Below are positions 503 through 37,458 of a stretch of DNA of 64,000 nt, piece after piece. Position numbers and translations under genes: made by a program. The stretch lies in the NCBI RefSeq assembly GCF_018399035.1, contig NZ_CP073760.1:2918001-2982000 (forward strand), written 5' to 3'. Source of the stretch: Thiocapsa sp. (GTDB taxonomy: Bacteria; Pseudomonadota; Gammaproteobacteria; Chromatiales; Chromatiaceae). Numbering within the stretch: the stretch's first letter is position 1; every line of letters begins with the position of its first letter. The notes beneath the pieces were generated by a model. It searched no databases. It had not been told where the DNA came from and was given only the letters and a program-made list of their open reading frames with translations.

Positions 503-514
503 GGCCGATTTACA
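497..514. promoter_or_regulatory. PpsR/CrtJ-type operator (TGT-N12-ACA)
   Basis: TGT at 497-499 and ACA at 512-514 are separated by exactly 12 bp, matching the established PpsR/CrtJ recognition palindrome. The box covers the -35 element of the predicted pucBA promoter, a position suited to repression. An overlapping TGACA-N8-TGTCA inverted repeat spans 484-501. PpsR homologues are encoded at 18621-20045 and 24985-26385. Confidence 0.65.
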
Positions 515-589
515 TATAATTCTTGTGGTCAGCCGACTCTGTGATTGGGATGTCGGAGAGCGGCGGGAGATAACAACAGTCTTCGGGAT

Positions 590-2633: not shown

Positions 2634-3970
2634 TGGATGCTTCCCCAGTCGACGGAAGCATCCTGCTCGACGCAGAGGCCGTGCAGCAGATAACGACCCT
2701 CCTCGGTGACCCTGATCCCGTCGTCCGTCACCTCGAGCAGGCCGCGCCCGCCGTCGCGGCACAGGCTCTCGTACTCCCGCTCCAATCCCTGCGCGGATGC
2801 CGCGGGGAGCTCCAGGTTGCACATGAGGAAGAGGATGGCCTCGCGCCGCCGTCGATCCTGATCGCTCAGGCGACGCCCCCAGGACACCGGAAGCAGTCCG
2901 GAGGCCAGACGAAGTTGCCAGGTCTTGAGGTCCGGCGCGTTCTGAACAAGCGCGCCGCCGACCTCCCCGATCCCGCTTGGACCGAAGGCAAGAACCTGTT
3001 TGGCCGGCATCGGGGTGTAACCGATCGCATTGCGATAGAGTCGACGCTCGTCTTGGGCACTGGTCAGCTCGTCGGCCTCTCGCGCGAAAACATCCAAACC
3101 GACCCAGCGATAGCCCGCTGCCGAGAAGGACTCCACGGCTTGATGGAAGAGTGCCAGCTTTTCGGCCACGGACGGAAGGTGCTCCGCGCTGATGGCGTGC
3201 TGATGGGGTCTGCTCACGGGATCGTGCGCGTAGCTGAAACAAGCGACCCGGTCCGGTCCGAGCTCGACGATCCGGTCGAGTGTCGCTTGAAAACCCTCGG
3301 GGGTCTGGAAGGGCAGGCCGTAGATCAGATCGAGATTGATGCTCTCGAAACCGGTGTCGCGCGCCGTCAGAAAGACATCGCGAACCATATCGAGTGACTG
3401 GACGCGGCCGATCGCACGCTGCACGTCGGCGTTCAGGTCCTGCACACCGAAGCTGATGCGCTTGAACCCAAGCCCGTAGAGGAGGTCGAGCTGCCCGGCA
3501 GAGGTGCGGCGCGGATTGCACTCGATCGAGGTGCAGGCTTGCTCGGCGATCCGGAAATGGCGCTCGACGATCTCGATCAGCCGTGCAAGCTGGGGCTCGT
3601 TGAGATGGTTCGGCGTACCGCCCCCGACGTGAAGCTGATCCGTCACCCGACCGCGCCCGATGATGTCGGTGACCAACGTCATCTCGCGGTCGAGTGCGTC
3701 GAGGTACTGGTCGACCTTCTCCTCGCTGTGCGTGATGGTGGTATTGCACGCACAGTAGAGACAACGCACGTGACAGAAGGGGACGTGCACATACACGGAG
3801 ACATGCTCATCGGGTCTGTCGCGCAGCCCCATGAGCGCTTCTTTGTAGTTCGAATCCGAGAAGGTCGCGTCACCGCCCATCTGCGATGCCGCCAAGGCAC
3901 ATCCCGGCGGCAAATGTCCGAACCGCTCGAGCAGCTCGAGCGGTAGGCTTGGAGGGAGTGGAGGCGCCAT
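2609..3970 (-). CDS. hemN: Oxygen-independent coproporphyrinogen III oxidase
   Basis: A 453-residue radical SAM enzyme that oxidatively decarboxylates coproporphyrinogen III to protoporphyrinogen IX without oxygen. The cluster motif is CHVRCLYCAC (CX3CX2CXC, as in HemN), followed by HVGGGTPNHL and the SAM-binding SIECNPRRTS. The catalytic and HemN C-terminal domains are both present and the length is standard for the family. The ATG at 3968-3970 starts 13 bp after the bchE stop. Pairing with bchE, another oxygen-independent radical SAM enzyme, suits anaerobic phototrophic growth. Confidence 0.95.
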   Translation of the reverse strand: MAPPLPPSLPLELLERFGHLPPGCALAASQMGGDATFSDSNYKEALMGLRDRPDEHVSVYVHVPFCHVRCLYCACNTTITHSEEKVDQYLDALDREMTLVTDIIGRGRVTDQLHVGGGTPNHLNEPQLARLIEIVERHFRIAEQACTSIECNPRRTSAGQLDLLYGLGFKRISFGVQDLNADVQRAIGRVQSLDMVRDVFLTARDTGFESINLDLIYGLPFQTPEGFQATLDRIVELGPDRVACFSYAHDPVSRPHQHAISAEHLPSVAEKLALFHQAVESFSAAGYRWVGLDVFAREADELTSAQDERRLYRNAIGYTPMPAKQVLAFGPSGIGEVGGALVQNAPDLKTWQLRLASGLLPVSWGRRLSDQDRRRREAILFLMCNLELPAASAQGLEREYESLCRDGGRGLLEVTDDGIRVTEEGRYLLHGLCVEQDASVDWGSIQWRATAGP

Positions 3971-9357: not shown

Positions 9358-14678
<5,321 letters not shown>

Positions 14679-26497: not shown

Positions 26498-26574
26498 GCC
26501 CTCGTAGCTCAGTTGGATAGAGCGATCGCCTCCTAAGCGGTAGGTCACAGGTTCAATTCCTGTCGAGGGCGCCA
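26498..26574 (+). tRNA. tRNA-Arg (anticodon CCU)
   Basis: A 77-nt cloverleaf with acceptor GCCCTCG/CGAGGGC, D-arm AGCTCAGTTGGATAGAGC, anticodon loop CTCCTAA (anticodon CCT), T-arm around GGTTCAATTCC and an encoded 3' CCA. Its 3' end is duplicated at 37436-37458, marking it as the attachment site of the mobile element that follows. Confidence 0.95.
26552..26574. other. attL, 3' end of tRNA-Arg
   Basis: A 23-bp segment repeated at 37436-37458 with two mismatches; the last 16 bp, CCTGTCGAGGGCGCCA, are identical. It marks the left boundary of the integrated element and preserves an intact tRNA. Confidence 0.85.
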
Positions 26575-26690
26575 TTAACCTGTAAAGCAACGTACAGCAA
26601 GATACGAACCACCCGCCTAAGTCACCGATTTTCCGGTAAAGTTTGTAAAGCAAGATACGGCAAGGAACATTGACAGCCGACGCCTTCCGA

Positions 26691-26737
26691 GGGTAACTAT
26701 GCGGGTAACCGCGTACACGCCTAAAGCAGTTACCCGC
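26691..26737. promoter_or_regulatory. GGGTAAC site cluster before the integrase
   Basis: GGGTAAC occurs at 26691-26697 and 26703-26709, and inverted at 26729-26735. The second and third form a 9-bp inverted repeat GCGGGTAAC/GTTACCCGC. The pair recurs near the right end (37364-37382). Candidate integrase arm-type or excisionase/regulator sites. Confidence 0.5.
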
Positions 26738-26739
26738 AA

Positions 26740-27954
26740 ATGCCCCTGACAGATGCAGCGATCCGCAACGCCAAGCCGGGCGCCAAGCCGGTCAAACTCA
26801 GCGACGGCGCGGGTTTGTTCCTGCTGATCACAACGAAAGACCGGCGCTGGTGGAGACTGCGCTACCGCTTCGACAGCAAGGAAAAAATGCTCTCGCTCGG
26901 GACGTACCCGCAAGTTACCCTCAAGGACGCCCGACAGAAGCGCGACGAGGCCCGCGCGCTGCTCGCCAAGGGCATCGATCCGTCCGCACAACGCCAAGCC
27001 GAAAAGACCGCCGACGCTGGCGGGGATCGCTTCGCCGCCGTTGCCGAAGAATGGTTCAAAAAGTTCTCACCACGATGGGTACCCGGCTACCGGCTAAAGA
27101 TTCGCGCGTGGCTCGATAAGGATCTGATCCCCTATCTCGGGTTTCTGCCGACCGACACGATCACCGCCCCCGAGCTGCTGGCCGTGGCGCGTCGTGTCGA
27201 GGCCCGGGGCGCGCTGCACACCGCCCACCGCCTGATACGCTGCGCTGGCCAGATCTTCCGCTATGCCGTTGCCACCGGCCGCGCGACCCGCGACCCGTCC
27301 GGGGATCTTCGCGGAGCATTGCCACCCGCCGACGCTGGACACTTCGCATCGGTAACCGACCCCGCCCGTGTCGCCGAGCTGCTGCGCATGATCGACGGTT
27401 ACACCGGCACCCCGACCGTACGCGCCGCCCTTCGCCTTGCGCCGCTGGTCTTCGTCCGACCCGGGGAGCTGCGCAAAGCTGAATGGGAAGCCATCGATCT
27501 CGACGCGGCACAGTGGAGGTATACCGTCACCAAGACCAGGACCGAGCATATCGTTCCCCTGTCCACCCAATCCGTCGAGATCCTCCGGGAGCTCCACCCG
27601 CTCACTGGACACGGGCGCTATGTCTTCCCGTCGGCCCGTGGCGATGATCGACCGATGTCCGAGAACGCGGTTCTCGCCGCGATGCGTCGTCTCGGAATCC
27701 CGAAAGACGAGATGAGTGGTCACGGCTTCCGCGCGATGGCTCGCACGATTCTCGACGAGGTGCTCGGCTACCGGCCCGACCTCATCGAGCACCAGCTCGC
27801 GCATGCCGTGCGAGATCCCAACGGCCGCGCCTACAACCGCACCGCCCACCTTGCGGCCCGCACGACCATGATGCAGGGATGGGCGGATTATCTGGACGGC
27901 ATCAAGATCGAGGGCTCGAACGTGGTCGGAATCCGCCGCGCGGGTAACCGCTGA
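26740..27954 (+). CDS. P4-family tyrosine integrase
   Basis: A 404-residue site-specific recombinase with the N-terminal DUF4102 arm-binding domain (residues 1-80, including GLFLLI and KMLSLGTYPQVTLKDAR), a SAM-like core-binding domain and a C-terminal catalytic domain. Catalytic residues are visible in RPGELRKAEW (R), HGFRAMART (H, R), IEHQLAH (H) and YNRTAH (Y). It sits 165 bp from the tRNA-Arg gene and is transcribed away from it, the usual layout for tRNA-targeting elements. GGGTAAC repeats flank both ends of the gene. Confidence 0.95.
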   Translation: MPLTDAAIRNAKPGAKPVKLSDGAGLFLLITTKDRRWWRLRYRFDSKEKMLSLGTYPQVTLKDARQKRDEARALLAKGIDPSAQRQAEKTADAGGDRFAAVAEEWFKKFSPRWVPGYRLKIRAWLDKDLIPYLGFLPTDTITAPELLAVARRVEARGALHTAHRLIRCAGQIFRYAVATGRATRDPSGDLRGALPPADAGHFASVTDPARVAELLRMIDGYTGTPTVRAALRLAPLVFVRPGELRKAEWEAIDLDAAQWRYTVTKTRTEHIVPLSTQSVEILRELHPLTGHGRYVFPSARGDDRPMSENAVLAAMRRLGIPKDEMSGHGFRAMARTILDEVLGYRPDLIEHQLAHAVRDPNGRAYNRTAHLAARTTMMQGWADYLDGIKIEGSNVVGIRRAGNR

Positions 27955-27982
27955 GGGTAACAACCGAGTCCGGAAACAATCT

Positions 27983-28090
27983 CGGCGACGTGAAACCTGA
28001 CGCTACCGTCGCTACCGACGCTACCGCTTTGAATCCGAAGCCGAAAAGCGGTAGCGACAAGCCGAAATCCAGACGCTACCGTTCGCTACC
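27983..28090. repeat. GGTAGCG/CGCTACC heptamer cluster, locus A
   Basis: CGCTACC occurs at 28001, 28010 and 28019 (9-bp period) and again at 28074 and 28084. An inverted GGTAGCG is at 28050. CGCTACCGCTTT (28019-28030) and its exact complement (28045-28056) form a 12-bp stem with a 14-nt loop. The whole ~108-bp block is a near copy of locus B at 30830-30937. Apart from this block and GGGTAAC sites, 27955-28192 holds no supported gene. Confidence 0.85.
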
Positions 28091-28192
28091 TCGCTGCTGG
28101 CGGATGCGGGTAACCGCCAACGAAATAGGCCCCGAAGCGGCTCCACCCGCGTCGAGGCCCTGGACAACACCGACCTATCGTAGAGGTCCGGC

Positions 28193-28648
28193 ATGACCGA
28201 AGTCGATGATACCGCTCTCGACGAGCTGATAGAACAAGCGCAGAAAGGCGACCAGGCCGCTACCGGCGAGTTATGCAGGATCGCCTCTCGCGCGCTCTAC
28301 GCAGGCGGCCCGGTCGAGATGAATCCAGTTCTACGCCGATACCTCGCCGCGTCCCTGTCGCGCGTCAAAGATGCAGGACTCGCTCGCGCCTTTGCGCCGT
28401 TGGGTCCGCAGCCTGCTTACATCCGAAAGGCCCGGAAGGAGATGAACGATCTCTCGCTGGTGATTTGGGTCGATCGCATCCGCAGCACGATGGGTCTGGT
28501 GACATTCAAGGACGGCACCCCGGGCCCCGTCTTCGAACTCGTCGGCAAGATGCTCGGGCGCTTCCTGCGACAGCCAGAAACAGGTATTACGCCTGGAAAC
28601 ATTCCCGGAAAACGGCCAAAACGCCGAAAAATCGGGAATGGCCAATGA
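28193..28648 (+). CDS. Hypothetical protein of the mobile element
   Basis: 151 residues; no family recognised. The N-terminal half is helical and acidic (DDTALDELIEQAQKGDQAAT). The middle shows RRYLAASLSRVKDAGLARAFAP and the tail is basic (GKRPKRRKIG). AGAGG precedes the ATG at a good distance. Codon use resembles neighbouring genes. It lies between the integrase and the AlpA regulator. Confidence 0.55.
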   Translation: MTEVDDTALDELIEQAQKGDQAATGELCRIASRALYAGGPVEMNPVLRRYLAASLSRVKDAGLARAFAPLGPQPAYIRKARKEMNDLSLVIWVDRIRSTMGLVTFKDGTPGPVFELVGKMLGRFLRQPETGITPGNIPGKRPKRRKIGNGQ

Positions 28649-28704
28649 AGTAGACCGAGCGCAAGAATGGCTCCACGGTGTACGACGACCTACGGAGCCA
28701 GCAA

Positions 28705-28911
28705 ATGAAGACCCCTCCCGCCCCCACCCGAATCATCCGGATACCCGAAGCCAAGCGCCTCGTCGGCGTCTCCCGAACCACCCTCTACACATGGATGCGC
28801 TCCGGTCAATTCCCTGCGGCAGTCCGCATCGGACCCCGCGCGGTCGGCTGGCGTGAATCCGACATCACAGACTGGATGCACTCGCGCGACCGCGTTGGAG
28901 GTGCAGCATGA
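28705..28911 (+). CDS. AlpA-family transcriptional regulator
   Basis: A 68-residue MerR-like winged HTH protein of the AlpA/Cox type, which in related elements controls integrase expression and excision. The fold is visible in RIPEAKRLVGVSRTTLYTWMRSGQFPAAVRIGPRAVGWRE, with the typical wing GWRESDITDWM. The ATG at 28705 is used because GGAG lies 7 nt upstream and homology begins just after it. The stop overlaps the next gene by 4 bp. Confidence 0.88.
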   Translation: MKTPPAPTRIIRIPEAKRLVGVSRTTLYTWMRSGQFPAAVRIGPRAVGWRESDITDWMHSRDRVGGAA

Positions 28912-29249
28912 CCCTCGTCGACACCCTTGATTCCATCGCTCGGGAGATGGACGCGGTAACGCTATTGATCGGGGGCGCCGCCGATTCACCGTGCTATGGA
29001 GTGGCGGATCTCGCCCCGGGTCTGCACGCCATCATGCGCAGGTGGACCGACACCCTTGATTCAATCGCCGCATCGGCCTGCGACTCCGAGACTTTCGACC
29101 TTGAGACCTTCGTCGTCAGTCTGACACCGGCCGAAGCCGCCGCAGTACGCGCTCAAGCTGCTGCGCATGCGGTCACCCCGGAGGCTGAGATCCTCGTCAT
29201 GTTGGACGCAGCAATCCAACGGCATCAAGCCAGCGAGCGGACATCATGA
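28908..29249 (+). CDS. Hypothetical protein
   Basis: 113 residues, unrecognised. TDTLDSIA appears near the middle and an almost identical VDTLDSIA near the start, so the N-terminal part may be an internal duplication. The C-terminal half is alanine-rich and helical (VSLTPAEAAAVRAQAAAHA). Its start overlaps the AlpA stop and its stop overlaps the next small frame, indicating coupled translation. Confidence 0.55.
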   Translation: MTLVDTLDSIAREMDAVTLLIGGAADSPCYGVADLAPGLHAIMRRWTDTLDSIAASACDSETFDLETFVVSLTPAEAAAVRAQAAAHAVTPEAEILVMLDAAIQRHQASERTS

Positions 29250-29377
29250 GCAGCGCAACGAGAAACGCCCCGATCGGCGCAGAACCGATCGAGGCGTTGA
29301 GTGTGGCCGCCAAGCCAAGTATCCTAAAGCCGTCCCCTGGTGCGCTACCAACGCCCCAGGGACGAAGCTCCGACTGA
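29246..29377 (+). CDS. Possible 43-residue protein
   Basis: A short frame starting in an ATGA overlap with the preceding gene. It encodes a proline- and alanine-rich peptide (KPSILKPSPGALPTPQ). No homology recognised; support is only the overlap typical of this operon. Confidence 0.3.
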   Translation: MSSATRNAPIGAEPIEALSVAAKPSILKPSPGALPTPQGRSSD

Positions 29378-29479
29378 GTAAGAGTCCGAGCACCGGCGAG
29401 ACAATGATACCTGTCAGGGTAACCTTTGTCGCGCCCCTGCCCGCCTTCCTTGGTCGGTTTCCAAACTCTGGAGACCACC

Positions 29480-29860
29480 ATGCAACAACACGACGACCCC
29501 ACCGACACCCCCTTGTTCCGCGCGGGCTACGCCCTGCTGAAACAGCTCCCGAGCGCCTACGGGATCTCGTCCAATTACGGCGCTATCGACCTGACCGAAG
29601 ACGACGAGATGCGCGCGGCCGTCATCGCCGCGGTCGAGCCCATCCTCAAGCGCCGGATCCAGGTCGCCAAAGGCGAGCCCAACCCACCGGACCCCGCCGA
29701 CGAGGCGTTGACCGTCGCACTGGCTGCATTCCTCGCCGACGAAGACGTCCGGCGCCTACAGGCCCTCGCCGACGAGCAGTATCTCGGCAGTCCGGGTCTA
29801 GCCGTCGCCGAGATCCTGCAAGCCAGCCTTGACGATCTCGTCGGGGAGGTAGAGCCATGA
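29480..29860 (+). CDS. Hypothetical protein upstream of the primase
   Basis: 126 residues, acidic, no family recognised. Contains FRAGYALLKQLPSAYGISS, an ADEALTVALAAFLADEDVRRLQAL helix and a C-terminal AVAEILQASLDDLVGEVEP. The ATG at 29480 has GGAG 6 nt upstream and is preferred to an upstream in-frame start. Its stop overlaps the primase start (ATGA), so the two are probably co-translated. Confidence 0.6.
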   Translation: MQQHDDPTDTPLFRAGYALLKQLPSAYGISSNYGAIDLTEDDEMRAAVIAAVEPILKRRIQVAKGEPNPPDPADEALTVALAAFLADEDVRRLQALADEQYLGSPGLAVAEILQASLDDLVGEVEP

Positions 29861-30774
29861 GCGCAGCTACCGCAGCAGCAACCCCTCCGACTTGGCGTGT
29901 CATCGACGACTTCGCCGCAGCAATCGCCGCGGCCGGTCTCGGGTCTCCCGACATCATCGCCGACGGACGCATCCATCGGTTCCGCACGGCAGACGACAAG
30001 GCCGGAAAACTGAGCGGCTGGTATCTGCTGCACCTAGATCGATGCGCGGCCGGCGCCTTCGGATCCTGGAAGGTCGGGTTTCAACAGACCTGGAGCGCCA
30101 AGACCGAAGCCGACGAGAAGATCGACTTCCGCGCGATGATCGAGGACGCCCGTCGACAGCGCGCTGTCGAGCAGCAGGCGACACACCGGGACGCAGCCTA
30201 TACCGCCTCCGAGATCTGGTCATCCTGTCGTCGAGCAACCCCTGATCACCCCTATCTGATCGCCAAGGAGATCAAGCCGCACATCGCCCGCGTCGATTCC
30301 GGTAACCGCCTGGTGCTGCCGATCGGCGACGGCTCCGCACTCACCAGCCTTCAATTCATCGGCGCCGACGGCGCCAAGAGGTTTCTCTCGGGCGGCCGGA
30401 TTTCCGGCTGCTTCTTCACCTTGAAGGGCGACGGGCGCCGCGAGTCGATCCTGATCGGCGAGGGCTTCGCCACCGTCGCGACCATGACGGAGGTCACCGG
30501 CGCACCGGGCGTTGTCGCCTTCAATGCGGGGAATTTGCTCCCGGTCGCCAAGAGGATTCGACGGATCAGGCCGCGCGCCGAGATCGTTGTCATCGGCGAC
30601 AACGACCGCTGGACGGAGGGCAACCCAGGCCGCACCAAGGCCCGAGCTGCTGCTTTGGAAATCGGCGCCAAGCTGCTGCTCCCGAATTTCGAGGGCATGG
30701 ATTTCAGCGACAAGCCGACCGATTGGAACGACTGGTACAGGATCGCCCGCGCGGCAGGGAGGGTTTCAGCATGA
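29857..30774 (+). CDS. TOPRIM-domain primase-like protein
   Basis: A 305-residue protein of the phage/plasmid primase type. An N-terminal domain reads the template (GRIHRFRTADDKAGKLSGWYLLH). The C-terminal TOPRIM domain has its catalytic glutamate in LIGEGFATVATM and its acidic pair in VVIGDND. It probably makes primers for element replication. The ATG overlaps the preceding stop; its own stop overlaps the ATG at 30771. Functional pairing with the DUF927 protein downstream is typical of P4-like elements. Confidence 0.85.
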   Translation: MSAATAAATPPTWRVIDDFAAAIAAAGLGSPDIIADGRIHRFRTADDKAGKLSGWYLLHLDRCAAGAFGSWKVGFQQTWSAKTEADEKIDFRAMIEDARRQRAVEQQATHRDAAYTASEIWSSCRRATPDHPYLIAKEIKPHIARVDSGNRLVLPIGDGSALTSLQFIGADGAKRFLSGGRISGCFFTLKGDGRRESILIGEGFATVATMTEVTGAPGVVAFNAGNLLPVAKRIRRIRPRAEIVVIGDNDRWTEGNPGRTKARAAALEIGAKLLLPNFEGMDFSDKPTDWNDWYRIARAAGRVSA

Positions 30775-31175
30775 GTTCGACGACGAAAAGACCGCGCCGC
30801 GGCATCAGGATCAAGCCGGAAGCAATTTCGGGCGACGTGAAACCTGACGCTACCGTCGCTACCGACGCTACCGCTCGGAATTCAAAGGCTAAAAGCGGTA
30901 GCGAAAAGCCGAAATCCGGACGCTACCGTTCGCTACCCCGGACGCTGCCGATGAGGCTGCCGACCTTGGCGCGGATCCGCTGGCGGATGCTGTCGACCCG
31001 GCGACGGAGCCGCCGAACGAGGATGACATCACCGGCACCGAGCCGCCCGAGATCGATCAATGCCCTTGTTGGAGGGTTTATCTGGACTGGTGGATGGCCG
31101 GCGCCGCCAAGCGCCGCCCCGGCGTCTACTATCACGGCGTCGAGGAGGATCTGGACGATAAGAAAAAGCGGGTAG
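30771..31175 (+). CDS. Frame opening the DUF927 gene, possibly frameshifted
   Basis: Starts in an ATGA overlap with the primase and reads SSTTKRPRRGIRIKPEAISG before entering heptamer cluster B (DATVATDAT). After the cluster its sequence looks non-natural. The adjacent frame encodes ADEAADLGADPLADAVD and CPCWRVYLDWW, a natural lead-in to the DUF927 protein but without any start codon. A one-base shift just after the repeats would join them. Either one frameshifted gene or a short leader protein. Confidence 0.4.
   Translation: MSSTTKRPRRGIRIKPEAISGDVKPDATVATDATARNSKAKSGSEKPKSGRYRSLPRTLPMRLPTLARIRWRMLSTRRRSRRTRMTSPAPSRPRSINALVGGFIWTGGWPAPPSAAPASTITASRRIWTIRKSG
30830..30937. repeat. GGTAGCG/CGCTACC heptamer cluster, locus B
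   Basis: CGCTACC at 30848, 30857 and 30866 (9-bp period) and at 30921 and 30931. An inverted GGTAGCG is at 30897-30903. CGCTACCGCT (30866-30875) and AGCGGTAGCG (30894-30903) form a 10-bp stem. The block is nearly identical to locus A and lies between the primase and DUF927 coding regions. Confidence 0.85.
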
Positions 31176-32776
31176 ATCTTTGGCTGTGCTCGCCCCTGAT
31201 CCTGGACGCGACAACCTTCGATCGGCGCGGAGAGTCCTATGGTCGACTGCTGCGGTTCCGCGACGTTCGCGGCCGTTGGCATGAGTGGAATTGTCCGATG
31301 TACCTGCTCCGCGGATCGTGCGAGGAGCTGCGCGGGGAACTCCTCGGGCTCGGGCTCGAAATCGACCATAAGGCCCGCGGGCGCCTCCCGAATTATCTGA
31401 TGCACCGCGCACCCAAGCGCGAAGTCATCGCCGCCCTGTCGCTCGGCTGGCACGACGACACATTCGTGTTCCCTGACGAGGCGATCGGACCCACCGAGAT
31501 CAGGTATCAGTCCGAATCCGCGACCATCGCAGACTTCGACCAGCGCGGCACGCTCGCCGAGTGGCGCGATAGCGTCTCGGTGCTGGCGAGCGACAACACC
31601 GTCATGACCCTCGCGATCTCGGCGTCGTTCGCTGGACCGCTGCTCGCAAGGGTTCACATGGAATCGTGCGGTCTGCATTTTCACGGCGACAGCTCGGGCG
31701 GCAAGACGACCGCGGTACAGGCTGCCGTTTCGGTCTGGGGTTCTCGCGATATGTTGCGCACCTGGCGCGGCACGAACAACGGGCTCGAAGCGGCCGCCGC
31801 CGAATCGACCGACACGATGCTCTCGCTCGACGAGATCAACGAGGCCAACGGCAAGGAGATCGGCGCCATCGTCTACGCCCTGGCCAACGGCCGCGGCAAG
31901 TCGAGGGCAACTCGGTCGGGAGGCGCGCGACGCATCGCCCGATGGCGCACCGTTGTCTTGTCGACCGGCGAGAAAACGCTGGAGGCGCGCATGGCCGAAG
32001 ACGGCGCTCGCCATCATGCAGGACAGGATGTCCGTCTCCTCAACGTGCCAACCGACGGCAGACGCTACGGCACCTTCGACTCGATTCACGGGCGCGACAG
32101 CGCGCGCGCGTTCGCCGACGAGATCAAGACCAGCTCGGGACGCTACTACGGCACGGCCGGGCGCGCGTTCGTGCGCTACCTCGTCGCCAACATCGCCGAA
32201 GACTTTGGCGCAATGGTCAAAACCCTGACCGACCGCATGCCCGCGACCGAAGGCCAAGAGGCTCGTGTTGCGCGGCAGTTTGCCCTGATCGGCACGGCCG
32301 GCGAGCTTGCGACAACGGCCGGCATCACGGGATGGGTACCCGGCGCAGCAACGAAGTCTGCGATGGACGCCTTCGTCATCTGGCGAGATGCGCGCGGCAA
32401 GGGCAACGTCGAGACGACCAAGATACTGAGCGCCGTTCGCGACTTCATCGAGCGGTACGGCGACCTTCGGTTTACGGACTCATCCTACCCTGACGCTCGA
32501 CCGCTCAGAGGAGATCGCGCGGGCTATACGCGCGTCATCGACGGACGTGTCGTCTACATGCTGACACCGGGCGGACTTGGTGAGGCGATCAAGGGTTTTG
32601 ATCGCGCTCGCGCGCTGGATGCGTTGGACGCTGCCGGCTGGTTGCTCTACACGTCCAAGGGCACCAAAGGCGAGCGCCGAACACAATCGAAGATCGGAGG
32701 ACGGAATGTCGGGTTGTATTCGATCCAGCTACCGGATGACGAAAACGTCGATGTCGAGCGCAAGGAGGCAGCATGA
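31094..32776 (+). CDS. DUF927-domain helicase-like protein
   Basis: At least 560 residues. A nucleotide-binding core is clear: Walker A in HFHGDSSGGKTTA (195-207) and Walker B-like LSLDEINEANGKE. Between them lies SVWGSRDMLRTWRGTNNGLE, characteristic of DUF927 proteins that accompany primases in P4-like elements. The C-terminal part resembles a winged-helix region (DALDAAGWLLYTSKGTKGERR). The ATG at 31094 is the first start in frame, but natural-looking sequence (CPCWRVYLDWW) extends upstream of it, so the true N-terminus is probably fused to the frame at 30771. Presumed replicative helicase of the element. Confidence 0.82.
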   Translation: MAGAAKRRPGVYYHGVEEDLDDKKKRVDLWLCSPLILDATTFDRRGESYGRLLRFRDVRGRWHEWNCPMYLLRGSCEELRGELLGLGLEIDHKARGRLPNYLMHRAPKREVIAALSLGWHDDTFVFPDEAIGPTEIRYQSESATIADFDQRGTLAEWRDSVSVLASDNTVMTLAISASFAGPLLARVHMESCGLHFHGDSSGGKTTAVQAAVSVWGSRDMLRTWRGTNNGLEAAAAESTDTMLSLDEINEANGKEIGAIVYALANGRGKSRATRSGGARRIARWRTVVLSTGEKTLEARMAEDGARHHAGQDVRLLNVPTDGRRYGTFDSIHGRDSARAFADEIKTSSGRYYGTAGRAFVRYLVANIAEDFGAMVKTLTDRMPATEGQEARVARQFALIGTAGELATTAGITGWVPGAATKSAMDAFVIWRDARGKGNVETTKILSAVRDFIERYGDLRFTDSSYPDARPLRGDRAGYTRVIDGRVVYMLTPGGLGEAIKGFDRARALDALDAAGWLLYTSKGTKGERRTQSKIGGRNVGLYSIQLPDDENVDVERKEAA

Positions 32777-33360
32777 CCCTCTTGGAGCGATTCTCAGAAA
32801 TTGTCGATGGAGCATTAGGCCCGGTAGCGACGGTAGCGACTCCAAAAACACCAGACGCTACCGATATTCACATTCAAAAACAAAGCGGTAGCGTCGGTAG
32901 CGACGGTAGCGACCGGAAACACTCCGACGAAACGACGACCCGCACGCTAGGCCCGGTAGCGACGGTAGCGACTCCGAAAACACCAGACGCTACCGATATT
33001 CGCATTTCAAAACAAAGCGGTAGCGTCGGTAGCGACAGTAGCGACCGGAAACACTCCGACGAAACGACGACCCGCACGCTACCGCAGCTTTCCGCCGACG
33101 ACCATGCAGTGATCCGCGAAGCGATCGAGGAACGCGCGGCCATCATCGAGTTCGATGCAGGCGAGCCGCGCGCGGTCGCCGAACACCAGGCCGCCGCGGC
33201 GATGCGGATCTACAAGTTCAGGCTCGCCGACAAGCCGGACACATGGCTGACGATGTTGGCGCCGGGTTGCGAGCTTGATCAGGCCCACCGTGATCTGGTG
33301 CTGAGGTTCGGCGCCGATCGCATGCTCGAAGTTTGTTCCGCCAATCCACCAACGAGGTAA
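32773..33360 (+). CDS. Hypothetical protein with two 44-residue repeats made of heptamers
   Basis: 195 residues. Residues ~16-103 are two near-identical 44-residue repeats (GPVATVATPKTPDATDI... and SGSVGSDGSDRKHSDETTTRT) encoded by the heptamer-rich 132-bp tandem repeat. The unique C-terminal domain (LSADDHAVIREAIEERAAIIEFD and AAAMRIYKFRLADKPDTWLTML) looks structured but is not recognised. The start overlaps the DUF927 stop. The repeat part seems to be a by-product of DNA repeats lying inside the gene. Confidence 0.65.
   Translation: MTLLERFSEIVDGALGPVATVATPKTPDATDIHIQKQSGSVGSDGSDRKHSDETTTRTLGPVATVATPKTPDATDIRISKQSGSVGSDSSDRKHSDETTTRTLPQLSADDHAVIREAIEERAAIIEFDAGEPRAVAEHQAAAAMRIYKFRLADKPDTWLTMLAPGCELDQAHRDLVLRFGADRMLEVCSANPPTR
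32816..33083. repeat. GGTAGCG heptamer cluster, locus C, with 132-bp tandem duplication
   Basis: GGTAGCG occurs at 32823, 32832, 32887, 32896, 32905, 32955, 32964, 33019 and 33028, plus an AGTAGCG variant at 33037. CGCTACC occurs at 32856, 32988 and 33077. Neighbouring copies within a group are 9 bp apart. Two near-identical 132-bp units start at about 32818 and 32950. Confidence 0.88.
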
Positions 33361-33366
33361 CACCTG

Positions 33367-33555
33367 ATGCTCGTACAGCATTCGTGCGTCGGCCCTGCAC
33401 GCCTGTACCGGGTCACCGAGACACTGGACGCCGATGTCCGGATCTCGAATGGACTCGCAACGCCCGAGATTCGCGAGGCACTCGCCAGACACTTGAACGA
33501 GATGCTCCAGCGACTCTCGACCACCAACACGACCATCACCGAGGTATCCCGATGA
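33367..33555 (+). CDS. Small hypothetical protein
   Basis: 62 residues, ATG 6 bp after the previous stop; contains LATPEIREALARHLNEMLQRL, a likely helix. No family recognised. Its stop overlaps the next gene, consistent with an operon of small element genes. Confidence 0.5.
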   Translation: MLVQHSCVGPARLYRVTETLDADVRISNGLATPEIREALARHLNEMLQRLSTTNTTITEVSR

Positions 33556-33851
33556 CCCTTCCCGGAAGTCACGAACGTGCGCTCGTCGATCTTGCTCGCG
33601 ATGCGGCCCGCTCCGAATTGGCCGCAGAAGCTGCGCGCTCGGAAGCGCGACGGCTCCGCGCGCAGGTCCGCCGCGTGGAGGTCGAGCGCGAGACAGCTCT
33701 CGCGCAACGCGATGATGCGCGAGCAGCGCTTGCTCGGCTGCGCCAAGAGCTGCTTCTGTTCCAGGCGGATGCTCAGCGTGAGCTTGAGGTCGAGCTCGAA
33801 TCCGTCGGGCGGCTCCGCGACCTGATCGACGACGACGGCGTCGGTCTGTAA
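33552..33851 (+). CDS. Small coiled-coil protein
   Basis: 99 residues starting in an ATGA overlap with the previous gene. Almost the whole chain is a predicted coiled coil with heptad pattern and many Arg/Glu/Ala (ARSEARRLRAQVRRVEVERE). This is the kind of small structural or adaptor protein common in phages. No specific function can be assigned. Confidence 0.55.
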   Translation: MTLPGSHERALVDLARDAARSELAAEAARSEARRLRAQVRRVEVERETALAQRDDARAALARLRQELLLFQADAQRELEVELESVGRLRDLIDDDGVGL

Positions 33852-33904
33852 CCACCATGCCCTGCTGCGGCAGCAGCAGGGCGAACACCGCAAGGTAACC
33901 GACG

Positions 33905-34237
33905 ATGAGATCGAAGACGAAAGCCAGATCGAAGAAGCAGCAGAGCGGGCCGGCCGATGTTGACCCTTGGCGCGAGATCCTCGCCGATCCCGAGATCATG
34001 AGCCGGCGCACCCCGGCCGATCTGGAAACCGACGACATCGCCAGCGATGGAGACGCGGCTTGGTTCCTGGCCCATCCCGGCGAGCGGATGCGGGCTCGTC
34101 ACCCTCTCAATGGCGAATTCGCTTGGGCAACCCCGTCCGGCTGCGACTGCTACGCCGTGCTGGTGTTCGAGGTCGCACCAGGCGTTCGTGCTCGTGGTCC
34201 GCTCTTTCGCCCGCTCGCACCGAGCGAAGTGAATTGA
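33905..34237 (+). CDS. Hypothetical protein
   Basis: 110 residues with a basic N-terminus (RSKTKARSKKQQ) and a compact C-terminal region containing DAAWFLAHPGERMRARHPLNGEF and GCDCYAVLVFEVAPGVRARGPL. The HPGERMRAR stretch recurs in small proteins of integrative elements but has no known function. An ATG with no strong Shine-Dalgarno is used. Confidence 0.55.
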   Translation: MRSKTKARSKKQQSGPADVDPWREILADPEIMSRRTPADLETDDIASDGDAAWFLAHPGERMRARHPLNGEFAWATPSGCDCYAVLVFEVAPGVRARGPLFRPLAPSEVN

Positions 34238-34451
34238 AAGCTGAGGGTCACGGTTTTGAATCCGCCTCTAACTGCCCCCGATGATTTCTATAACTACATG
34301 CTTTCTCGGAAGTTTTCAGCAGGATGGGACCCTGCACACCCCTCAAATACCACGGGAGATTCCAGCCCCGGATTTCGACAGGATTTCATTCCCTTAGGGT
34401 CTCGGCAGCAGATAACCGAAGTATTTGCATCGAAACATCGAGAAACCCGAT

Positions 34452-34898
34452 ATGAAACCGTCTGAGCGCCTCGCCATGCTTGAGCGAGTAATCACCGCGG
34501 CCCGCGTCATCGACCCGACCGCCGCCGCGTTCCTGGCTGATGCGCTGCACCAGGCTGCAACAGGATCTGCCGAGACGATCGACGAGGGTCTCGGGCTGCG
34601 CGGCCCCGGCATCAAGCGCATTGCCTGGCACGCGCGGATGACCCGCCGGAATGAGCACCTCCGTAACGCTTTCACGTTGACGCCGTTCGGCGAGAACACC
34701 GAGACCGACGACCGGATCAAGGATCTCGTCGGCGCTATCCAACGTTTCGAGGCGTCATCATGGAAGTGGTCGCAGCATTACCCTGAGCCGCCTGAAAGGC
34801 TGTCGCCGAGGGCTTGCGAACTTTGGCACGCGATGCGCAACGGCCCCTGCCCCGCATCGGAATCTCAGTTGAAAAGGATCGTTCTCGACAGGCAGTGA
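34452..34898 (+). CDS. Hypothetical protein
   Basis: 148 residues, helical. Starts MKPSERLAMLERVITAARV and contains IKRIAWHARMTRRNEHLRNAF and, near the end, RLSPRACELWHAMRNGPCP. The last segment resembles a winged or DNA-contacting end, but no family is recognised. The 214 bp upstream hold only a weak TTG-initiated frame. Confidence 0.5.
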   Translation: MKPSERLAMLERVITAARVIDPTAAAFLADALHQAATGSAETIDEGLGLRGPGIKRIAWHARMTRRNEHLRNAFTLTPFGENTETDDRIKDLVGAIQRFEASSWKWSQHYPEPPERLSPRACELWHAMRNGPCPASESQLKRIVLDRQ

Positions 34899-34972
34899 TC
34901 ACCAACCCCCGGGTTTTGATGGCGTATCTCTGGGTTCAGAATTGTGTCATTCCATCCACCCAGGACACAGAG

Positions 34973-35323
34973 ATGTCACGAGCCGACCGCCCCGCCAACA
35001 TCATCAACATCGGACCACCGCGTTTCTATCTCGGCGGCCCGCCCGAGGGAGAACTGCGCACTGCGCTGTACCCGGAACAGCGGCAGATGAGCCGAGCCGC
35101 GCGCGAAGAACTGGATCAGGCCCTCGCCGAGATCGCCGCGAACGAGCCGGCCGGAGGCCGCGCCCGTCAATCCACCGCAGCACCCGCGAAAGCAGATCCC
35201 TGGGCGGCCGCGATGGAGGCTTTGAGCGAGGCTTTGAGCACCGGCACCCCCGCGCGCGACGAGCCCATGCGCCAACCCCGGTTTCCCGTGCATCGCCAGA
35301 CCCGCGGAGGGTCTCCGCGATGA
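34973..35323 (+). CDS. Hypothetical protein
   Basis: 116 residues, Ala/Arg/Pro-rich and probably largely disordered after residue 50. The ordered start reads RPANIINIGPPRFYLGGPPEG. The stop overlaps the next start by 4 bp (ATGA). No family recognised. Confidence 0.5.
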   Translation: MSRADRPANIINIGPPRFYLGGPPEGELRTALYPEQRQMSRAAREELDQALAEIAANEPAGGRARQSTAAPAKADPWAAAMEALSEALSTGTPARDEPMRQPRFPVHRQTRGGSPR

Positions 35324-35724
35324 TCTTTGAAGCACCCTTGAGCCTTGAGCGGAAACGGGAGCGCGCGGCAAAGATCGCGCCTTACGAGGAACAGCTGCGC
35401 CGCCTGCGCCGCGAGGCGAAGGGAGCGCATGCTGCCCTGACGCGACTCTGGGACGAGCGCAGAGAATTGCTGCACGAGGTGCAGACCTTGCGCGCGTGGC
35501 TCGGGACCGCGACGTACGTCCGAGCGATCAACCCGCCAAAACGCGACGATACCCCCCAGATTGCAGGCGTGAAGCTCGATCTCGAATATGCCGAGAAGCG
35601 CCTTGCCGAGCTGGACGCCGCCATCGCCGAGGCCCAAGCCGCTTGGCGCCCGCAATCACAACTCATTTCCAGATCTGAGGAATGGTTGCAGGCGAACACT
35701 TCGCGTCTTTGCGAGTACGGCTAG
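35320..35724 (+). CDS. Coiled-coil hypothetical protein
   Basis: 134 residues beginning in an ATGA overlap. Two long amphipathic helices are clear, SLERKRERAAKIAPYEEQLR onward and KLDLEYAEKRLAELDAAIAE onward, separated by a short loop with TATYVRAINPPKRDDTPQ. This predicts an antiparallel coiled-coil hairpin. Function unknown. Confidence 0.55.
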   Translation: MIFEAPLSLERKRERAAKIAPYEEQLRRLRREAKGAHAALTRLWDERRELLHEVQTLRAWLGTATYVRAINPPKRDDTPQIAGVKLDLEYAEKRLAELDAAIAEAQAAWRPQSQLISRSEEWLQANTSRLCEYG

Positions 35725-35725
35725 C

Positions 35726-35977
35726 ATGCAGGTCGGACGGGAATGGGTCGAAATCGCAGGCCCCGGCGTGTGGTTCGAGGCGCAGTCAGACGCCGCGTCC
35801 GGCATTGAGCTGTCCTACGGCACAGACCAACCCGCCGAAGACCTGGCGGGGCTTTGGATTCCTGGCCGTAGAATCTTCCGCCGCTCCGAGATCACCGCGC
35901 GCGCCTGGTGCAGGCTCCCGGCAACTGCGCGAGTCACCACTTCAACCTTACGAATTTTCACGGGATCACAATCATGA
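35726..35977 (+). CDS. Small hypothetical protein
   Basis: 83 residues; beta-rich look with many Trp and aromatic residues (REWVEIAGPGVWFEAQS, DLAGLWIPGRRIFRR). The ATG is 1 bp after the preceding stop and its own stop overlaps the next gene (ATGA). No family recognised. Confidence 0.45.
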   Translation: MQVGREWVEIAGPGVWFEAQSDAASGIELSYGTDQPAEDLAGLWIPGRRIFRRSEITARAWCRLPATARVTTSTLRIFTGSQS

Positions 35978-36435
35978 ACATTGACCTGATCCGCGCCAGC
36001 ATCGCGGCACTCCAGGACGAGCGCGAGGCCATCGAGAAAAGTTTTCCCAGTTGGGATGAAACCGCCGCCGCCCTCGCCGCAGATGTCGGGCGAATGTCGG
36101 AGTCCGGCCGCCGAGCTCTCTCCCCCGCCCAACTGCGCCGCGGCCGCATGCATGGCCGCGGAGTCGATGCGCTACTCTTGGCCGCCGCGTTCGACCCGGC
36201 CGGGCTCACCGAGCGCCTGCTCCGGGTCGCGCGCGCGGAATTCCCCGAAAATGGTATCAGCGCCGCCGACCGCCGCCGACGCCTCGCCGAGATCGACGCG
36301 GAGCTGTTCGCCTTGGAGATTGAAGAGGAGCGCCAGATCCGCGCCGCGGCGACGCCGATCGTTCGCCGTGGCGATGCCCATCCTGCTGTTGTGCTGGCGC
36401 CTTCGCTGGAAGACTTGAATCGCTTTGCGGCTTAA
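35974..36435 (+). CDS. Hypothetical protein
   Basis: 153 residues, predicted helical. It contains RASIAALQDEREAIEKSFPS near the start and AADRRRRLAEIDAELFALEIE near the end, suggesting a dimeric coiled-coil protein. The region RRGRMHGRGVDALLLAAAFD is basic. Overlaps its neighbour by 4 bp at the start. No function assigned. Confidence 0.5.
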   Translation: MNIDLIRASIAALQDEREAIEKSFPSWDETAAALAADVGRMSESGRRALSPAQLRRGRMHGRGVDALLLAAAFDPAGLTERLLRVARAEFPENGISAADRRRRLAEIDAELFALEIEEERQIRAAATPIVRRGDAHPAVVLAPSLEDLNRFAA

Positions 36436-36712
36436 TCGAGGTCGCCGATCCGTGCCACCTCTCACGGATCGCCCGCGCCGGCCGGGAGGCGAAGCCGGCC
36501 CCATCTACCCCGGGGCAGGCGATTGTCCGCTTTGCTCCTCGCCGACCAACGTGATCGACACCAGGCGACCCGACGACAAGACCATTCGGCGCCGCCGAGT
36601 CTGCACGCGCTGCGGGTTTCGGCACAGCACTACCGAGGTCATCGTCAGGACTCCGGCATTGGAATCGGCGGCTCGACTTGCCAGTACCCGATGCGGAGAT
36701 GTTGGCGGCTAA
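36425..36712 (+). CDS. NrdR-like zinc-ribbon protein without ATP-cone
   Basis: Up to 95 residues. The core CPLCSSPTNVIDTRRPDDK...CTRCGFRHSTTEVI matches the zinc ribbon of the ribonucleotide reductase repressor NrdR (two CxxC knuckles and a VIDTR motif). The ATP-cone domain that senses dATP is absent, and the protein ends soon after the ribbon. Possible starts are TTG 36425 or GTG 36452. It may bind NrdR-type sites or serve as a phage-like Ogr/zinc-finger activator. Confidence 0.6.
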   Translation: MRLNRGRRSVPPLTDRPRRPGGEAGPIYPGAGDCPLCSSPTNVIDTRRPDDKTIRRRRVCTRCGFRHSTTEVIVRTPALESAARLASTRCGDVGG

Positions 36713-37027
36713 ACCCGAAGCCGTGAGCTGAGTCGCGCCCCTGTAGTTAGCTGCGATGACCTACCCGAGCCCATCGGCCGCCACCCTGCCCGCACCGGCT
36801 CGGATCCCATCATCCGACATACCTTGTCGCATCGTCGCAGCCTATCGGGCGCGTCCCTTGCTTGAATCGTGCAACCCGCTGAACGGCCGTAGGCGCAAAA
36901 TCCGCGCCTGATAGATGGAGGCGATCAATCGACTCGGCTCCGGGATCATGTAAGGCTGGCGGATGCCTACCGCCGTGCGCGTCGGCCGGCTGGCGTTGGC
37001 AACTGGGTCGGAACAGCCAACACCTAC
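36713..37027. other. Non-coding stretch of the element
   Basis: No supported gene. A minus-strand reading frame here depends on the tandem repeat that follows and has no natural composition. I see no terminator or promoter of note. Confidence 0.5.
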
Positions 37028-37040
37028 TGGTCGAGATCAC

Positions 37041-37340
37041 CGACATCTTGATGGTGAAGATCGCCAACACCTGCCGGTCGAGACCAACTACATCTTCAAG
37101 GTCGAGGGCATGGTCATCTTGATGATGGAGGTCGCCGACATCTTGATGGTGAAGATCGCCAACACCTGCCGGTCGAGACCAACTACATCTTCAAGGTCGA
37201 GGGCATCGTCATCTTGATGATGGAGGTCGCCGACATCTTGATGGTGAAGATCGCCAACACCTGCCGGTCGAGACCAACTACATCTTCAAGGTCGAGGGCA
37301 TCGTCATCTTGATGATGGAGGTCGCCGACATCTTGATGGT
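37041..37340. repeat. 95-bp tandem repeat near the right end of the element
   Basis: Units starting CGACATCTTGATGGTG lie at 37041, 37136, 37231 and 37326, exactly 95 bp apart. That gives three full units plus part of a fourth, with very few differences. The period is not a multiple of three, so it is not a protein repeat. Each unit contains ATCTT-N7-AAGAT and several CATCTT(G/C)A words. Confidence 0.92.
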
Positions 37341-37363
37341 GGCGACCACCCGTGACCACGTGC

Positions 37364-37382
37364 GGGTAACTATGAGGGTAAC
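37364..37382. promoter_or_regulatory. GGGTAAC pair at the right end
   Basis: GGGTAACTATGAGGGTAAC here differs by one base from GGGTAACTATGCGGGTAAC at 26691-26709. Both pairs have 12-bp spacing and the same orientation, and each lies close to an att site (61 bp before the identical core of attR and 117 bp after attL). Candidate arm-type integrase sites. Confidence 0.5.
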
Positions 37383-37435
37383 AACCTGGAGCGAAAGACC
37401 GTTTTACCTTACACATCAAGCGAATGGTGAGCACA

Positions 37436-37458
37436 TTCGATACCTGTCGAGGGCGCCA
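37436..37458. other. attR, duplicated tRNA-Arg 3' end
   Basis: Matches 26552-26574 at 21 of 23 positions, with CCTGTCGAGGGCGCCA identical. There is no tRNA body here, so it is the element's right junction. The coaX end follows 85 bp later. Confidence 0.85.

Follow-up and report, generated by a model that had tools for sequence, protein, structure and literature searches.

In Gram-negative phage-inducible chromosomal islands (PICIs) such as EcCICFT073, the genes run int-alpA-pri-rep-ori with two sets of iterons after rep, the iteron sequences being given element by element, and E. coli maintains a plasmid that carries a cloned rep-ori segment (PMC6092414). In the Staphylococcus aureus pathogenicity islands (SaPIs), the C-terminal domain of Rep recognises iterons directly downstream of rep (PMC7581432). 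We analysed a window of 64,000 nt from Thiocapsa sp. (contig NZ_CP073760.1, positions 2,918,001 to 2,982,000; coordinates below are those of the window), which contains an integrated element of about 10.9 kb (26559–37458). Like a Gram-negative PICI, this element carries int, alpA, primase and rep genes in that order and in one direction, is integrated site-specifically between direct att repeats, and is small (10.9 kb; PICIs are about 10 kb upward). Its rep gene encodes a DUF927 protein, and copies of the heptamer GGTAGCG are clustered at three places near these genes. We consider it very probable that the heptamers are the replication-origin iterons of a PICI-like satellite or integrative element, bound by the C-terminal domain of the DUF927 protein.

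GGTAGCG or its complement CGCTACC occurs 34 times in the window, with 28 copies inside the element and 24 of these inside the three clusters, in agreement with the approximately 23 exact copies in tight clusters reported in a preliminary description of this DNA. Just six copies fall in the 53.1 kb of window DNA outside the element. The region 27983–33083 holds 27 heptamers, against a mean of 1.9 and a maximum of 7 in 300 second-order Markov copies. Across the 5.73-Mb genome, the tandem GGTAGCGNNGGTAGCG (at most one mismatch) was found at 11 places, 10 of them within the element. Such clusters were absent from the rest of this genome and from 193 other genomes of the family; in the latter, exact tandem pairs were scattered, with at most two overlapping per genome. 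Elsewhere in the host genome the heptamer is rare, which leaves the reading of these sites as iterons standing.

Writing GGTAGCG as R and its complement as L, with spacings given as distances between site starts, all clusters are built from one six-site module, R(9–10)R(24)L(31)R(9)R(9)R, present in four copies (A, B, C1 and C2). The preliminary description had recognised the mostly 9-bp spacing, borne out by the 9- to 10-bp steps within modules, and had missed that the module spacing is fixed among the clusters. Module A (27984–28093, minus strand) lies between int and alpA, with exact heptamers on the minus strand at 28001, 28010, 28019, 28074 and 28084, and on the plus strand at 28050. Module B (30831–30940, minus strand) lies just 3′ of the primase gene, in the 5′ coding region of the DUF927 gene (minus-strand sites at 30848, 30857, 30866, 30921 and 30931; plus-strand site at 30897). 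The two are 92% identical over 110 bp and both read RR-L-RRR on the minus strand, inverted relative to cluster C. There, C1 (32816–32947, plus strand) and its tandem copy C2 (32948–33079) share 96% identity over 132 bp and both read RR-L-RRR on the plus strand, with exact plus-strand heptamers at 32823, 32832, 32887, 32896, 32905, 32955, 32964, 33019 and 33028, and minus-strand heptamers at 32856, 32988 and 33077; the last R of C2 bears one mismatch. The L-RRR spacer of C1 and C2 is 67–71% A+T, with 71% in C1, compared with 37% for the element. The perfect stems noted earlier are simply the single inverted site of each module, and single-strand folding is weak to modest. An RNA or hairpin function was rejected, as single-strand folding gave z values of only -1.1 to -2.5.

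The module recurs beside DUF927 genes in other elements. Relatives of the DUF927 protein were gathered by genome search and with an alignment as query; a single-protein query gave none in the genomes or viral contigs. Relatives, at 27–76% identity, turned up in 38 of the 194 host-family genomes (that of the host included); the class gave 27 of 369 genomes, the phylum 48 of 398, and viral contigs 121 stretches. At most loci examined, the top clustered heptamer adjoins DUF927 and is spelled differently from GGTAGCG. These words include GGTCGCG, GGTCCCA, GGTAGCA, GGTAGAC, GGTTCCC, GGTTACG and GGTTCGC, as well as TGTCCCC, TGTCCAC, TGTTACG, TGATACC, TGCAACG and others, and almost all of them fit, or nearly fit, the form [T/G]GTNNCN. 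A search of each locus with its own word gave 127 RR-L-RRR modules (some recounted where sites overlap), spread over 71 of the 91 loci. The RR-L distance is mostly 23–25 bp and the L-RRR distance mostly 31–34 bp, longer versions also being present, and RR-to-RRR distances peak at 54–57, 63–67 and 77–78 bp, with a strongest period of about 11 bp, close to one helical turn. The preliminary description had asked whether each element family has its own heptamer; most of the DUF927 elements sampled do differ in theirs. The pattern is conserved among sister elements as geometry and not as spelling, and this too leaves the iteron reading standing.

The geometry was also scored without reference to any word. 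Markov copies, other spacings and flanking DNA served as controls in place of reversed sequence, which is uninformative because the module spacing survives reversal. A fixed-spacing score of at least 0.8 was reached by 30 of 81 genome loci, compared with 0 of 81 Markov copies and 1–2 loci for two other spacings, and flanking window DNA reached a maximum of 0.62. One alternative spacing set still scored at least 0.7 in 12 loci, because 9-bp arrays partly satisfy several spacings. Polarity is conserved too: each of the 21 upstream modules has the opposite orientation to the main downstream type. In close relatives of the host a pair of modules brackets the DUF927 gene; elsewhere both lie 3′ of it, and the most constant position is directly 3′ of DUF927. 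At one locus (L087), adjacent arrays at 9730–9943 and 10529–10743 share an identical internal spacing but not the word (TGTTGCC, TGTTCCC), as though a duplicated origin had later been re-spelled. At another (L090), TGTAACC/TGGTTAC arrays (3291–3396 and 12790–13031) are found on either side of DUF927 at a distance of more than 3 kb, not in the usual position.

Arrays directly 3′ of DUF927 were also found on three circular plasmids (Legionella fallonii, 14.6 kb; Skermanella rosea, 35 kb; Methylobacterium nodulans, 20 kb), on the linear protelomerase plasmid pCECT9189-4 of Photobacterium toruni, and in the packaged satellite phiAH14b (PMC4936722). The P. toruni plasmid thus combines a DUF927-type initiator gene and iterons on a linear replicon. 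Other initiators are possible on these plasmids, because their gene tables are incomplete, and pTAO100 carries repM. Pseudomonas aeruginosa pHS87b and vB_Pae_U10 have a DUF927 gene with a weak array.

The likely binder of these words is the DUF927 protein itself. The gene (30902–32776, plus strand; open frame 30902–32773 plus stop) was assigned as an initiator helicase by homology: it matches Pfam DUF927 at 1.3e-82, and a DUF927 profile matches SaPIBov1 Rep (8TCH) at 2.5e-41 and Cch of the staphylococcal cassette chromosome mec (SCCmec; 5DGK) at 9.5e-31, both matches extending into the C-terminal domain. The structure model (mean pLDDT, predicted local distance difference test, of 84) aligns through the C-terminal domain with Z scores of 26.6 (8TCH) and 30.1 (5DGK), at 16–18% identity. 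The homology to SaPI Rep and Cch thus spans the AAA+ core and the C-terminal winged-helix domain, in which a beta-hairpin is predicted for the wing (strands 594–598 and 601–608). The wing codons lie at 32645–32731 (plus strand; residues 582–610 of the 624-aa frame) and are the proposed word-reading surface.

If the DUF927 protein reads the word, its DNA-contacting part should vary with the word. Differences in 25-residue windows were therefore compared with word differences after removal of whole-protein distance. Among 62 proteins the best window was the wing (582–609; partial r 0.59, whereas no window outside the C-terminal domain exceeded 0.33), and label permutation gave p = 0.0005 for residues 570–612. 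With 29 viral proteins added, the top three windows among closer pairs all fell at 573–612. Nearest-neighbour prediction of the word left 1.03 mismatches of 7 from the wing against 1.29 from the rest of the protein, with exact prediction in 41% and 27%, respectively. In 45 phylogenetically independent pairs the wing gave a partial r of 0.40 (p = 0.004), and the top seven windows fell within 506–612. Two loci, L054 with the word GGTTCGC and L060 with GGTTCCC, differ at 42% of wing residues, 6% of residues elsewhere and one letter of the word. Word changes apparently follow the wing better than most of the DUF927 protein.

That the sites lie in or beside coding sequence, as the preliminary description stated, was upheld for this element and recurs in related ones. 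Module A is intergenic, or within a doubtful 68-aa open reading frame (ORF), and modules B and C are inside coding sequence. C1 and C2 begin 40 bp past the DUF927 stop, in the 5′ coding region of the next ORF (32773–33360, plus strand; 195 aa), whose N-terminal half they encode (VATVATP...GSVGSDGSD) and which has homologues at loci L040–L042. Module B is translated as DATVATDAT and module C as VATVAT...GSVGSDGSD. Relatives with other words carry VASVAS or VPSVPS/IGPIGP, and VPAVPAVP, GVQGVQ or AVHHVH at the DUF927 C-terminus, and the peptide is thus dictated by the word in the DNA. Low-complexity heads and tails of these proteins (VATVAT, GSDGSD, VPAVPAVP), odd in themselves, are by-products of a DNA module sitting in coding sequence, and are explained as DNA-driven. 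The first ATG of the DUF927 frame is at 31094, six codons ahead of the Pfam match, and the homologous N-terminus (ATG 30771) is in another frame. The shift falls after the L site of module B, where the L-R spacer is 24 bp, compared with 25 bp at L040 and L043. Translation may start at ATG 31094, or the copy may be impaired. A programmed frameshift at module B was rejected: a weak slippery run was seen by eye only, and a one-base difference from the relatives is simpler.

The locus probably works like a PICI or SaPI origin, and probably is one. In the model we propose, the element would excise before the module is used. The DUF927 protein, as a hexameric initiator helicase of the SaPI Rep/Cch type, would use its C-terminal winged helix to bind the sites, the wing determining which word is read, and would assemble there on the phased module. 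It would then open the A+T-rich L-RRR spacer of C1 and C2 and load itself, and the adjoining Toprim primase would prime replication. The preliminary description had proposed either origin iterons or binding sites of a regulator encoded by the element, and the geometry of the sister elements, the homology to Rep and Cch and the covariation of word and wing speak for that proposal.

Several points count against our interpretation. Module A, beside int, has no obvious role in the model, about one fifth of the loci with a word gave no full module, and some further loci had no clear word. The DUF927 copy could be impaired, because its N-terminus is out of frame. In the covariation analysis the words were taken from consensus by eye, the set from viral contigs alone gave 0.24 for the wing and 0.28 for residues 347–371 and is not decisive, and in the independent-pair test the window 506–530 (0.44) stood above the wing.

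The strongest alternative is that the modules are operator sites for DUF927, AlpA or another protein, mainly controlling int/alpA and pri-rep transcription, and do not form an origin. Initiators often autoregulate. Module A lies upstream of alpA and the ORF preceding it, module B is at the pri-rep junction, and an additional operator role for these two modules is possible. However, the most constant array position is immediately 3′ of DUF927 and not upstream, the word follows the DUF927 C-terminal domain, and an array stands beside DUF927 on a plasmid with neither alpA nor integrase among its listed genes (gene table incomplete). We therefore regard a purely regulatory array as unlikely. Less likely by some way are integrase arm sites, excisionase sites or a packaging (pac/cos) signal: module A adjoins int and such elements need arm sites and packaging signals, but the GGGTAAC pairs at both ends (26691/26703 and 37364/37376) suit arm sites better, the modules in relatives go with DUF927 and not with int, and plasmids carry modules too. 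Least credible of all is selection on a flexible VATVAT/GSDGSD linker with the DNA repeats as a by-product since, although B and C fall inside open frames and a 9-bp step is three codons long, one element uses the same word in different frames and orientations (DATVATDAT, VATVAT, GSDGSD), the peptide changes along with the word in relatives (VASVAS, VPSVPS/IGPIGP, VPAVPAVP), the single inverted site and the spacing are kept, and A and many other arrays are not clearly coding.

Beyond the iterons, the element begins in tRNA-Arg(CCT) (26498–26574), where attL (CCTGTCGAGGGCGCCA; 26559–26574, plus strand) forms the 3′ end of the gene and is a 16-bp exact repeat of attR (37443–37458, plus strand). 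The tyrosine integrase gene (26740–27954, plus strand; Pfam Arm-DNA-bind_3, Phage_int_M and Phage_integrase) is followed by genes for an AlpA-type excisionase/regulator (28678–28911, plus strand; Pfam Phage_AlpA, 1.4e-17) and the Toprim primase (pri; 29857–30774, plus strand; Pfam Toprim_3, PHROG DNA primase 1e-56). Besides int, alpA, pri and DUF927, the element has small ORFs of no assigned function. No terminase or capsid match was found at 33.3–36.7 kb of the window. A small protein encoded at 36425–36712 has an NrdR-like zinc ribbon and is weakly Ogr/Delta-like. Ogr/Delta proteins turn on P2-type late genes, and a link to a helper phage is possible. GGGTAAC pairs, 12–13 bp apart, occur near both att sites and after int (26691–26709, 27942–27961, 28108 and 37364–37382). 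They probably serve the integrase (arm sites) or AlpA and form a second repeat system separate from the iterons. Just inside the right end (37028–37350) are three near-identical copies of a 95-bp unit (CATCTTGATGGTGAAGATCGCCAACACC...). These direct repeats were rejected as part of the heptamer system, being unrelated to the iterons.

For the wider family our confidence is evenly divided. The broader proposal is that one Pseudomonadota initiator family uses a helically phased six-site module whose word, read by the wing, drifts freely, giving an alignable specificity code that would set the compatibility of satellites and plasmids, with the origin nested in, and dictating the peptide of, initiator-operon coding sequence. 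The name DUF927 still denotes a domain of unknown function. Phased [T/G]GTNNCN arrays at DUF927 gene ends would provide an origin-finding rule for many satellites, islands and plasmids. The natural word/wing pairs, dozens in all, would be material for the study of initiator specificity and incompatibility.

Compared with Gram-negative PICIs, the C1/C2 array holds the same position directly 3′ of rep and is the candidate origin. The PICI layout places two sets around a short A+T-rich stretch, whereas here the inverted sets flank the rep gene, because one is in its 5′ coding part and the other in the next ORF; the A+T-rich spacer lies inside C1/C2, and there is an extra copy beside int. The fixed 24/31 spacing shared across the phylum was not found in the passages of PMC6092414 consulted. 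SaPIBov1 Rep and SCCmec Cch differ in having Gram-positive hosts, and in this element the primase is a separate Toprim gene; many DUF927 relatives are a single frame of 900–1200 aa, perhaps a primase-helicase fusion. Phage P4 is alike in its type I iteron TGTTCACC, which fits the [T/G]GTNNC form, in the RR-L-RRR topology of ori1, and in its two iteron regions, one of which directly follows the initiator gene. It is unlike this element in its spacing (43/22 compared with 24/31), its word and its intergenic arrays. The P4 alpha protein belongs to another helicase family, and the element has separate Toprim and DUF927 genes, with DUF927 and Cch1 as best families, and no alpha-type primase-helicase of the P4 family. 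Salmonella genomic island 1 (SGI1) is likewise an integrated element with an iteron oriV directly after rep, but its iterons are 17 bp, its initiator is of RepA_C type and it has a putative DnaA box (PMC7433901). In the literature searched, with most subscription journals outside its coverage, no description of the DUF927 spacing rule, word drift or coding overlap was found. The kind of origin is already known (PICI ori, P4 ori/crr), and what is new is the phylum-wide spacing rule, the drift of the word tied to the wing, and the overlap with coding sequence.

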